Of a stretch of DNA of 64,000 nucleotides, positions 15,447 to 40,895 are shown one piece after another (within the stretch, counting starts at the first letter, position 1; the number at the start of each line of letters is the position of its first letter). A program made the position numbers and the translations under genes. The stretch lies in assembly GCF_014635905.1 (NCBI RefSeq), contig NZ_BMDS01000001.1, forward strand, positions 248,001-312,000. Direction: 5' to 3'. Origin of the DNA: Limosilactobacillus caviae. Lineage in GTDB: Bacteria; Bacillota; Bacilli; Lactobacillales; Lactobacillaceae. The notes beneath the pieces were generated by a model. That model saw only the letters and a list, made by a program, of their open reading frames with translations, was not told the origin of the DNA and searched no databases.

Positions 15447-15712
15447 AAAAGCCTTTCGTTCCCTAAAACTAAGGGACGAAAGGCTTTTTTCCGCGGTACC
15501 ACCCAAATTGTCTAGAAATATCTAGACCTCCTCAAGAACACGCTATAATGCTCTGCTGGTAAGGTAACGGTCCAGATCCGGCCAAGCCTACTTTAAGTAA
15601 ACTCATTTGGGTTGGCAGCACTCGCGAAAGTGTTATTCACTAGCGTAGGGTCGACCGATTTCTCACTATCATCGGTTCACTGAACGAATACAACTAGTTA
15701 CTCTTCTTTCTC
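15447..15712 (-). ncRNA. T-box riboswitch (Asn specifier) upstream of asnA
   Basis: On the minus strand the leader has the AAGAGTA base of stem I, a specifier AAC (15634-15632, asparagine) followed by the conserved purine, the T-box GGTGGTACCGCGG at about 15504-15491, and a terminator hairpin at 15485-15451 with a T run. The whole element reads from about 15712 to 15447. Confidence 0.9.
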
Positions 15713-15778
15713 ATCGCTTTTTTATTTTGTTAATTGTATTTTAACCTAATTCTTTTAAAATGCAATACTTTATTTAAA

Positions 15779-16745: not shown

Positions 16746-16927
16746 CAATCCACTCCCTTATAAAAATTTGTCAGGGAACACATTGACGTTTCCGTTTATG
16801 GTGAATGCGGAAAACCAAAGCAGCGCGAAAGCTTCCTTCCAACGTTCACATTCCGTTCCGCTGGACAATGACTCTGGGATTCCTACCCCAACAATTGAAG
16901 TATACGATAAGTACGGATATTAAACAA
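16746..16927 (-). promoter_or_regulatory. folT promoter and structured leader, possible riboswitch
   Basis: TTGTTT at 16927-16922, a 17-base spacer and TATACT at 16904-16899 form a good promoter. The roughly 145-base leader is GC-richer than its surroundings. GCGGAA (16861-16856) pairs with TTCCGC (16812-16807), and GTGAA (16849-16845) with TTCAC (16805-16801), an ABA'B' order that implies a pseudoknot. It does not show the conserved core of the tetrahydrofolate riboswitch as I remember it. Confidence 0.6.
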
Positions 16928-29373: not shown

Positions 29374-29665
29374 AGTCCCTAGGAAAAATATTTCTACTTT
29401 TCCTAGGGACGTTGATTAATCATTATTAATTAACGTGTTACCACCCTAATTTGATAGTATTTCGCAATACCATCCTCAATAGGTACACTAATGGAAGCTA
29501 TACCCAGACGTTTTATCGGTCGTCAATCGTGAATCGCTTATACAAGGTACTCGCGGTTCGTTAAGCTCCAAGACCATCTTCATCTTAATCTCTTATATCA
29601 CATCTCATCAACTGTGACTCTCTGTAATAAGATTTTAAGATTACTCATCTTTTTTAAGCTGTTTC
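29374..29665 (-). ncRNA. T-box riboswitch (Met specifier)
   Basis: On the minus strand: the GATGAGTAA base of stem I near 29650, a specifier AUG (29577-29575) followed by G and UCUUGGAG, the T-box AGGGTGGTAACAC at about 29448-29435, and a strong terminator around 29410-29374 with CCTAGGGAC/GTCCCTAGG and a T run. Specifier placement follows the usual pattern. Confidence 0.85.
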
Positions 29666-29794
29666 TCATTTATTTGTCATTATAATACGCGGACAAAAGG
29701 TGTATGTCAAGCCAATTTTATAAAAAATTATCCTTGACATTTTATATCTAAGAGATTATATTAAATAAAAATTAAAAAATAATTATAAAACACG

Positions 29795-30050
29795 TTGAAA
29801 AGAAGAGTAATTATAAGCGGATTGGCAGAGAGTCCTTGGCTGATGAAAAAGGATAATCTGCTTATAACGAAAATCACTTTGAGTGCCATGATGAAACTAG
29901 TAATTAATGGTGGGATCAGCCCATTACAGCTGACGTGTTTAATGGCAACATTGAACATATGAGGCTAGTAACGTGAGTTATTGGCAAATAAAGGTGGTAC
30001 CGCGCAAAAAGCGTCCTTAGATGTATTTGATCTAGGGACGCTTTTTTTAT
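29795..30050 (+). ncRNA. T-box riboswitch (Ile specifier)
   Basis: Plus-strand leader with AAGAGTAA at 29803-29810, a near-perfect 13-bp stem (about 29811 onward) around the AGAGAG/GNUG region, a probable specifier AUC at 29873-29875 followed by ACUUUGAG, the T-box AAGGTGGTACCGCGC at 29991-30005 and a terminator at 30009-30047. A reading as Ile is best; it rests on alignment to the common T-box pattern by eye. Confidence 0.85.
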
Positions 30051-38808: not shown

Positions 38809-40614
38809 TTAGTTTTCGCGGGAGTAGGATGCAATATCACCAAGAATTTCGTTCATAAATGCATCTTGGCTCATTTCGTTTTGATCCTTTTCACCATACT
38901 TACGTACAGAAACACCGTTATTATTCTTTTCATCATCACCAACAACAAGAGTGTATGGAACCTTTTGTGTTTGAGCTTCACGAATCTTGTAACCCATCTT
39001 TTCATTACGGTGATCAACAACAGCACGAATATTAGCGGCCTTCATCTTCTTAGCGAGGTTATCAGCATATTCGCCATGAGCATCTTCGTTAACTGGAATG
39101 ATGTGAACCTGTTCTGGAGATAGCCAAGTAGGGAAAGCACCCTTGTAAATTTCAGTTAGGTAGGCAATGAATCGTTCCATAGTACCAACAACACCACGGT
39201 GAATCATAACAGGCTGGTGTTCTTTACCATCTTGACCTACATAAGTAAGGCCAAAACGTTCTGGAAGCATGAAGTCCAATTGAATAGTGGACATTGTTTC
39301 ATCATTACCGAGGGCAGTCTTAGTTTGAATATCAAGCTTTGGACCATAGAATGCAGCTTCACCTTCTGCTTCGTAGTAATCAAGGTTAAGGTCGTCCATG
39401 GCTGACTTCAACATGGATTGAGACTTCTCCCACATTTCGTCATTAGCGTAGTACTTCTTAACGTTCTTAGGGTCACGGAGAGAAAGACGGAAACTGTAAT
39501 CAGTAATATCGAAATCTTCGTAAACACTCATGATTAACTTCAAAATCTTAGCGAATTCAGAACGAATTTGATCAAGGGTAACAAAAGTATGACCATCGTT
39601 TAAAGTCATTTCACGAACCCGTTGAAGACCAGAAAGGGCACCAGATTTTTCATAACGGTGCATCATTCCAAGTTCGGCAATCCGCAATGGTAGGTCACGG
39701 TAAGAACGGATATGGTGCTTGTAAATTTGAATATGGCTTGGGCAGTTCATTGGCCGTAATTCAAGCATTTCACCGTCACCCATGTCCATAGGTGGGAACA
39801 TGTCGTCGCGATAGTGTTCCCAGTGACCAGAAGTCTTGTAGGCATCAAGGTTCATCAATACTGGAGTGTAAACGTGTTTGTAACCATCGGCAACTTCTCG
39901 GTCAATGATGTAACGTTCAATTGTCCGCCGAATAGTAGAACCCTTCGGCATCCAGTATGGTAATCCGGCACCAACCTTTGGATCAACGAAAAAGAGGTCT
40001 AATTGATTACCGATAACCCGGTGATCACGTTCCTTAGCTTCTTGGCGCTTCTTTAAATCTTCTTCTAATGCATCCTTCTTGTAGAAGACAGTTCCGTAAA
40101 TCCGTTGGAGCATTGGATTTGAGGACATTCCTTTCCAGTACGCACCGGCAACGGAAAGAAGGCGGAAGTTTTTAACAACGTTACCATATAAAAGAATATC
40201 ATCATCGGCAACGGCTTTGACATCACCGAGTTGATACATTGCAACTTTGCCGTCTTTAGCGTTTTCTTTGATTAATTCAGTAGAAAAACGATCATCTTTA
40301 ACCTCGGCAAGGGCGTCGTCAACGGGAACTTCAACAAATTCAACCTTAACGTCATCCTTAGCCATACCCTTAATAACATCTTCAAGAGCAGTTAATTCAT
40401 CAGCGGAAACTTGTTGGTCATCCTTGTCAGAATCAACATGGAAACCATCTTCATCAGCAACAGCTTCTCCAAGGCGAATACCCTTAAATTCTTGCTTTAA
40501 TGCAGCCTTTAGCATTAATGCTGAAAGCTTACGTAATGCTTCTAAACCTTCTTGAGAATCCCGATCAATCTTTTTAACTGATCCATCTGGGGACATAACA
40601 GCAACTTGAGCCAT
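38809..40614 (-). CDS. thrS: Threonyl-tRNA synthetase lacking TGS and editing-site residues
   Basis: A 601-residue ThrRS (usual length about 645) with an intact class II core: [13 protein letters not shown] (zinc Cys), motif 2 [23 protein letters not shown] (zinc His), motif 3 [13 protein letters not shown] (zinc His), then a C-terminal anticodon domain. The N-terminal 240 residues are degenerate: the TGS domain is cut to about 15 residues, the HxxxH of the editing site reads K29 and L33, and the CxxxH loop before LLSVAGAYW is shortened and lost. Charging should work, editing of seryl-tRNA should not. GGAGAG precedes the ATG. A Thr T-box controls it. Confidence 0.92.
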
Positions 40615-40642
40615 ATCAATCTCTCCTTTAATATAAATAAAA

Positions 40643-40895
40643 ACGTCCCTGATGCCTTATCTAAAAAGCATCAGGGACGTTAATTAACAATAATTAGCGT
40701 GGTTCCACCCATCTTTAGGACACACTAGTAATGTCCTCTCTAAGGTGCGGTAACGGACACGATCCGACTAGCCTTATGTCGGCTAATAATAAGGGAAGGT
40801 GGTACAACAGTCATTATCACTCACAAGTGCTTCCACTCTAGGCACTCGCTCTCTGTAGAGGATGTTGAAAGTGCATATCCTTCAATCAATTGTCT
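40643..40895 (-). ncRNA. T-box riboswitch (Thr specifier) upstream of the ThrRS gene
   Basis: On the minus strand: stem I base near 40890, specifier ACC (40803-40801) followed by A and CCUUCC, the T-box GGTGGAACCACGC at about 40709-40697, and a terminator with ACGTCCCTGATGC and its complement at 40680-40643 followed by T run. Confidence 0.85.

Follow-up and report, generated by a model that had tools for sequence, protein, structure and literature searches.

A threonyl-tRNA synthetase without editing-site residues and with most of its TGS domain missing in Limosilactobacillus caviae, and its counterparts among the Lactobacillaceae

The window, the 64,000-nucleotide stretch of Limosilactobacillus caviae DNA analysed here, contains a threonyl-tRNA synthetase (ThrRS) gene that had been predicted from the sequence to encode an enzyme short at its N-terminus and devoid of the residues that hydrolyse Ser-tRNA-Thr. 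Such an enzyme raises the question of what the cell uses it for. It could be a second copy, called upon under stress, or it could be the enzyme that supplies the whole cell with Thr-tRNA, with serine mischarging either left uncorrected or dealt with by other means.

The gene, its product and its leader

The features of the gene and its product are as follows.

38809..40614, (-) strand: thrS, threonyl-tRNA synthetase, 601 aa; an ORF scoring 645 bits with NCBIfam thrS, the sole genomic copy found
40623..40629, (-) strand: Shine-Dalgarno-like AAAGGAG, read from the sequence, preceding the ATG at 40614
40564..40614, (-) strand: residues 1-17, a hairpin aligning with the final part of the TGS domain, 44 residues of the usual N-terminus being missing (alignments; modelled strands at residues 3-7 and 13-17)
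40084..40563, (-) strand: N2 editing domain in degenerate form, residues ~18-177 (AlphaFold2 fold confident over most of its length; Pfam tRNA_SAD 13 bits)
40516..40530, (-) strand: former HxxxH motif, now K29-L-S-A-L33 (alignment to E. coli K-12 ThrRS)
40195..40209, (-) strand: former CxxxH motif, now A136-D-D-D-I140 (alignment to E. coli K-12 ThrRS)
38845..40029, (-) strand: catalytic core, its Zn ligands being C291, H342 and H472, together with the anticodon-binding domain, which runs to residue 590 (Pfam PF00587 and PF03129; pocket columns)

The product is a member of the thrS family (cut-off for TIGR00418, 384 bits), and its top phmmer and Foldseek matches are ThrRSs. Pfam finds the class II core (PF00587) and the anticodon domain (PF03129), and the E. 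coli zinc ligands C334/H385/H511 are all kept, as C291/H342/H472, which bears out the predicted intact core. The ligands Cys334/His385/His511 are likewise present in 42/42 enzymes with an intact editing site and in 25/25 and 161/161 of the D-x-x-x-L and erased classes described below, the window enzyme included (L174, L175 and E. coli stand outside these groups).

When the protein is aligned to E. coli K-12 ThrRS, all four editing residues are substituted: H73xxxH77 reads K29LSAL33, as had been predicted, and C182/H186 are A136/I140. The motifs might have reappeared once properly aligned, but neither HxxxH nor CxxxH does so. Of the editing-domain family tRNA_SAD, a sub-threshold remnant is left (13 bits, cut-off 24). 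The original prediction described the CxxxH loop as shortened and lacking its Cys and His; the two residues are indeed absent, but the loop is not shorter, since 24 steps separate the C182 column from the Trp of the AGAYW segment in both proteins and the alignment is ungapped there, so that the residues have been substituted rather than deleted. The N-terminus had been put at 45-50 residues short, with no TGS domain. There are 44 fewer residues ahead of the HxxxH site, most of the TGS domain is missing and no TGS match is listed by Pfam at E up to 10; however, a hairpin of ~17 residues, which phmmer and MAFFT place against the final part of the TGS domain, is retained. Compared with canonical bacterial ThrRSs (E. 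coli 1QF6, S. aureus 1NYQ), the window enzyme is alike in its core, zinc ligands, anticodon domain and N2 fold, and differs in the replacement of the four editing residues and the absence of most of the TGS domain. The proposal that it charges tRNA-Thr and should not correct serine mischarging is supported at the level of sequence, the editing residues being gone.

Control by a threonine T-box was also proposed, and a leader for it was found.

40670..40894, (-) strand: threonine T-box leader with specifier ACC and antiterminator bulge UGGA (Rfam RF00230, 58.4 bits, E 2.6e-11; sequence)

The RF00230 model aligns in full, yet the score lies under the Rfam gathering score of 93, and the leader is therefore not listed in a default scan. 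By eye, the specifier and bulge fit tRNA-Thr(GGU) with discriminator U73. The genome has a tRNA-Thr(GGT) gene (in L276) with discriminator U, and the three other tRNA-Thr genes found (UGU, CGU and AGU) end in A73. A Thr specifier, ACC or ACU, was read by eye in 20 of the 22 leaders that show the core motif, out of 24 sought; as exceptions, one leader (L022) reads GCC and another (L142) has no clear T-box.

Two tRNA genes of this genome, tRNA-Thr(AGT) at L265:151-225 and tRNA-Leu(AAG) at L273:105-191, have A34 anticodons, which are unusual in bacteria. The window carries further T-boxes at 15469-15723 (-), before asnA and a class II D/K/N synthetase gene, at 29402-29665 (-), before a metE-like methionine synthase gene, and at 29786-30021 (+), before a PanE/ApbA-like reductase gene, the last two being divergent. 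A THF riboswitch at 16797-16892 (-) precedes an ECF transporter substrate-binding gene.

Editing-site classes and their history

The Lactobacillaceae include food, plant and gut bacteria, and the genomes sampled are ~1.2-3.6 Mb. The family is represented by 110 ThrRS sequences from 109 of 301 drawn genomes; these cover all 40 drawn genera through hand-picked representatives, with a single sequence for each of 19 genera. The editing site is erased in 32 of the 40 genera, reads D-R/K-G-G-L in seven and is intact in one. The erased class (160 sequences), to which the window enzyme belongs, nowhere keeps H77, C182 or H186, and keeps H73 in seven sequences. In the D-x-x-x-L class, both HxxxH histidines are found together with D182 and L186 (DRGGL or DKGGL) in 25/25 sequences from seven genera. 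Genus g19 is the sole sampled genus of the family with an intact site, in five of five sequences (L130, L211, L212, L214 and L216). The D-x-x-x-L genera are g2, g6, g7, g16, g18, g29 and g39, with L133, L136, L138, L140-L143 and others as examples.

Beyond the family the site is nearly always intact. For other families of the Lactobacillales, 103 genomes were drawn, 38 fetched and 37 classified, and 37 of their 39 sequences have the intact site; the two exceptions, L174 and L175, are extra divergent copies in one genome (G378) that also holds an intact copy. For other orders of the class, 56 of 103 drawn genomes were examined, and 61 of 62 sequences are intact, the lone exception (L351) being a second copy beside an intact one in G453. 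These three copies have altered editing motifs and are ~37-38% identical to the window ThrRS; possibly they are resistance or specialised copies. The class sample includes no named Mycoplasma and so holds no positive control for natural loss. Four of 111 class genomes gave no ThrRS hit at threshold, and G064 (65% complete) and G165 (87% complete) gave weak hits only. In the full set of 231 sequences, some species appear both under a named locus and under a G locus. L201 (433 aa, a ThrRS cut in two by the end of a contig) and L236 (a repeat) were left out before alignment, L309 (the same split gene) out of the other-order tally, and L174, L175, L204 and L001 out of the class identity counts.

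Trees were built after merging identical cores, which kept 204 of the 231 sequences. With N2 and core together, the Lactobacillaceae are monophyletic (support 1.0), as are the erased class (0.986) and the D-x-x-x-L class (0.913), and the latter groups with the intact g19 enzymes (0.979). The TGS-less group is monophyletic in the trees that include N2 (0.995 to 1.0). The core-only tree does not recover the D-x-x-x-L class as monophyletic, six sequences joining intact g19 with support 0.63, and it keeps the Limosilactobacillus and Paucilactobacillus enzymes apart; in N2-only trees the erased class also takes in the divergent copies L174 and L175. The single origins of the TGS-less group and of the D-x-x-x-L class thus rest on N2, because the core-only trees agree less well. 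Given the groupings of the N2 and core tree, the intact site of g19 looks inherited, and the pattern suggests that the editing site was lost or altered at least twice within the Lactobacillaceae and that a single TGS truncation followed.

The truncation is found in 62 of the 231 sequences (48 by rule and 14 by eye) and, among those examined, in Limosilactobacillus, Paucilactobacillus and Ligilactobacillus saerimneri only. The TGS-less ThrRS of Lig. saerimneri (L054), as well as L097, is nested within Limosilactobacillus; this nesting suggests horizontal transfer to Lig. saerimneri, where the enzyme is an apparent horizontal replacement. One genome of genus g3 (G042) has two TGS-less, editing-erased ThrRS genes, L104 and L161. 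Neither the family-wide loss nor the separate step of TGS truncation is visible from the window alone.

The spread of the erased type bears directly on whether the window gene is an oddity of one genome. A frameshift, a wrong start or an assembly error has a negligible probability: the ribosome-binding site and the leader fit the start, the same start region is seen again, at 71-97% identity, in named genomes of independent origin, and nothing was found in favour of such an artefact. The nearest named enzymes, of L. rudii and L. reuteri, are 97% identical, and among the best 80 of 579 confirmed named matches all 80 are of the erased class and none has an intact site, which disposes of an assembly error. 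The original prediction had offered a threonine-starvation or stress isoform, or an inhibitor-resistant second copy, and a second such enzyme beside a normal one would be in keeping with the T-box and with the extra ThrRSs of altered editing motifs found elsewhere (L174 and L175 in G378; L351 in G453). However, the L. caviae genome (99.99% complete, 24 contigs) gave one full-length ThrRS match when a second, canonical thrS was sought genome-wide; the other hits are weak and partial, and the two strongest of them sit in a frame that also carries a ProRS INS domain. With one ThrRS found in the genome and the erased type in 32 of 40 sampled family genera, both versions fail for the present assembly, and their probability is minute. 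The window ThrRS is the housekeeping enzyme, not a second, stress-related isoform.

The fate of the N2 domain and of fidelity

At core identities of 75 and 80%, the N2 domains of intact enzymes are 69 and 74% identical, those of D-x-x-x-L enzymes 73 and 73%, and those of the erased class 43 and 48%, in a comparison that is descriptive because the pairs are not independent. The TGS-less group, which is the window's own, shows milder drift, with N2 identities of 61 and 62% at the same core identities and of 67 and 68%, against 80 and 86% for intact enzymes, at core identities of 85 and 90%. Judged by these identities, drift is faster in the erased N2 domain than in functional N2 domains, as would be expected under relaxed constraint. 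A fold is nevertheless still predicted for it. In the AlphaFold2 model of the window ThrRS, 10-residue confidence means are mostly 85-95 over residues 1-160, with N2 dipping to 60-74 at residues 61-70 and 151-170. For the whole model the mean pLDDT is 70.7, and residues 194-227 and 246-339 fall below 50; S. aureus ThrRS is the top match in the PDB, with a whole-chain TM to 1NYQ of 0.46, a poor superposition that is due to the badly modelled core, so that the N-terminal part alone was used. Since the fold is predicted with high confidence, the erased N2 domain should retain a function of some kind, perhaps tRNA binding.

Could a remodelled N2 domain still edit by means of different residues? 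The idea is easier to entertain for the D-x-x-x-L class, whose N2 is about as conserved as that of intact enzymes (73% at core identities of 75% and 80%) and whose four residues, the HxxxH histidines with D182 and L186, are common to all its sequences across seven genera. Because there is little sign of relaxed constraint there, D-x-x-x-L enzymes may still use N2, with the site rewired rather than dead. In the window's class, however, N2 is drifting and all four residues are gone, and C182A/S costs the E. coli enzyme >500-fold by the figures in PMC4041444; on balance, continued editing by N2 is quite improbable. Fidelity might instead be kept elsewhere, with no mistranslation, if a ProXp-ala-like, YbaK or AlaX protein clears Ser-tRNA-Thr or if the synthetic site rejects serine better. 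Candidates for trans-editing are present in the L. caviae genome besides the INS domain of ProRS, as judged from their sequences.

L237:1429-1923, L238:1363-1920 and L240:1462-1968: two ProXp-ala-like proteins and one YbaK, three free-standing INS-family proteins of the L. caviae genome

ProXp-ST1 and ProXp-ST2 are described as acting on Ser-tRNAs (PMC11295145). However, the L. caviae genome has four PF04073 hits, whereas just two were counted in 61 of the 81 family genomes and between three and five in the remaining 20 (hits counted by eye, with ProRS and free-standing proteins told apart by frame length only), and across 118 order genomes, 15 of them Lactobacillaceae, there are one to five per genome. 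As to AlaX, the tRNA_SAD search of the L. caviae genome picks up AlaRS, the remnant in ThrRS and nothing else, and no more than three of the 81 family genomes have a shorter, separate tRNA_SAD frame (G077, 163 aa; G040, 181 aa; G035, 372 aa). By these counts, no conserved trans-editing substitute was seen among the AlaX and INS proteins of the 81 family genomes.

As for the synthetic site, some synthetases with degenerated editing domains are said in PMC4787780 to discriminate better at the active site. At column 488, close to the conserved Q484, 96% of the erased class has Met, where intact g19, the D-x-x-x-L class and the other Lactobacillales examined have Leu; since Met488 marks the erased class in this way, altered Ser/Thr discrimination through this change is possible. 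Changes confined to the erased class also occur at columns 246 and 259, as with the Leu-to-Met change at 488. Column 311, too, differs from class to class, and columns 480, 515 and 516 do so in part. Column 336 differs between the Lactobacillaceae and other Lactobacillales, and V328E, H336S and M338I predate the loss, being shared with intact g19. However, most of the 29 hand-chosen pocket columns are alike in erased and intact enzymes, which weakens the case for compensation at the synthetic site. Taken together, the two forms of compensation appear rather unlikely. An explanation of the loss by redox chemistry, C182 being peroxide-sensitive, loses force, given that the Cys is still there in the other Lactobacillales examined. 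Proofreading has not been lost in general, since both HTATH and CGGDH are still present in the AlaRS of the L. caviae genome (read by eye).

The reading that we regard as highly probable from these sequences is that the window ThrRS is the sole, housekeeping enzyme, with charging intact and N2 a relic without proofreading, that the loss was stepwise in the family, and that low-level serine for threonine is most likely tolerated. The enzyme should charge tRNA-Thr through its intact zinc active site, and N2 would lack the residues that hydrolyse Ser-tRNA-Thr. The catalytic editing residues would have been lost in the ancestor of most Lactobacillaceae genera, drift of the N2 domain would have followed, and most of the TGS domain would have gone later, in the ancestor shared by the Limosilactobacillus and Paucilactobacillus enzymes; in a separate lineage of seven genera, C182/H186 would have become D/L with both HxxxH histidines kept. 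In E. coli ThrRS, the editing kcat is given as 7000-fold lower for H73A, 70-fold lower for H186A and >500-fold lower for C182A/S (PMC4041444). Since E. coli mutants of the editing residues lose editing, the lactobacillus ThrRS should mischarge some tRNA-Thr with serine. The E. coli C182A strain is reported to have ~3% Ser at Thr codons, with lower yield and density (PMC7326783); its growth defect is called little in a review (PMC10057733), and another paper counts ThrRS among the editing defects that cause growth defects. The L. caviae cell most likely tolerates low-level serine at threonine codons.

Known systems and the meaning of the loss

Degenerate ThrRS editing has been reported in Mycoplasma (Li et al. 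2011, as cited in PMC9976931 and PMC7373986), and the lactobacillus enzymes resemble this case in that a bacterial ThrRS has naturally lost its editing site. The setting differs, Mycoplasma being reduced, host-restricted parasites, whereas the lactobacilli have genomes of ~1.2-3.6 Mb and the window genome keeps the editing motifs of its AlaRS. An insertion beside CxxxH characterizes the T2 ThrRS of Anabaena and is predicted for high-G+C Gram-positives (PMC4787780), so that here too editing is impaired, or predicted to be so, by a change next to CxxxH outside reduced parasites. However, Anabaena T2 is described as keeping both motifs, residual activity and an editing partner, T1, whereas the window ThrRS has neither motif left and no partner for it was found. 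MST1 of yeast mitochondria is likewise a ThrRS without a working editing domain (PMC4267643), but according to that source MST1 is without the whole domain, whereas the window enzyme keeps the fold.

Loss of synthetase editing has been tied to small, host-restricted genomes (PMC10057733, PMC7373986). A misacylating ThrRS was inferred to be selected against as a housekeeping enzyme, and impaired ThrRS editing was predicted in Mycoplasma and high-G+C Gram-positives (both PMC4787780). No literature on the loss of ThrRS editing in lactobacilli was found by title or abstract, and an earlier mention is possible. The alignments and the genus counts support a natural loss of ThrRS proofreading residues across a family of bacteria that are not reduced parasites. 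A bolder view, to which we give slightly less than even weight, is that most Lactobacillaceae are permanently without ThrRS proofreading and would carry a lasting ‘statistical proteome’, with serine in place of threonine to an extent governed by the intracellular Ser:Thr ratio, with at least two losses, one of which was perhaps a conversion to an Asp-based D-x-x-x-L editing site.

If the loss is as proposed, a family with larger genomes that sheds ThrRS proofreading would fit badly with the views that link editing loss to host restriction and that expect selection against a misacylating housekeeping enzyme. The enzymes would offer a natural series, from intact through D-x-x-x-L and erased to erased and TGS-less, in which the cost of serine-for-threonine errors could be measured. 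Probiotic and food species would then be among the Lactobacillaceae that live without ThrRS proofreading.
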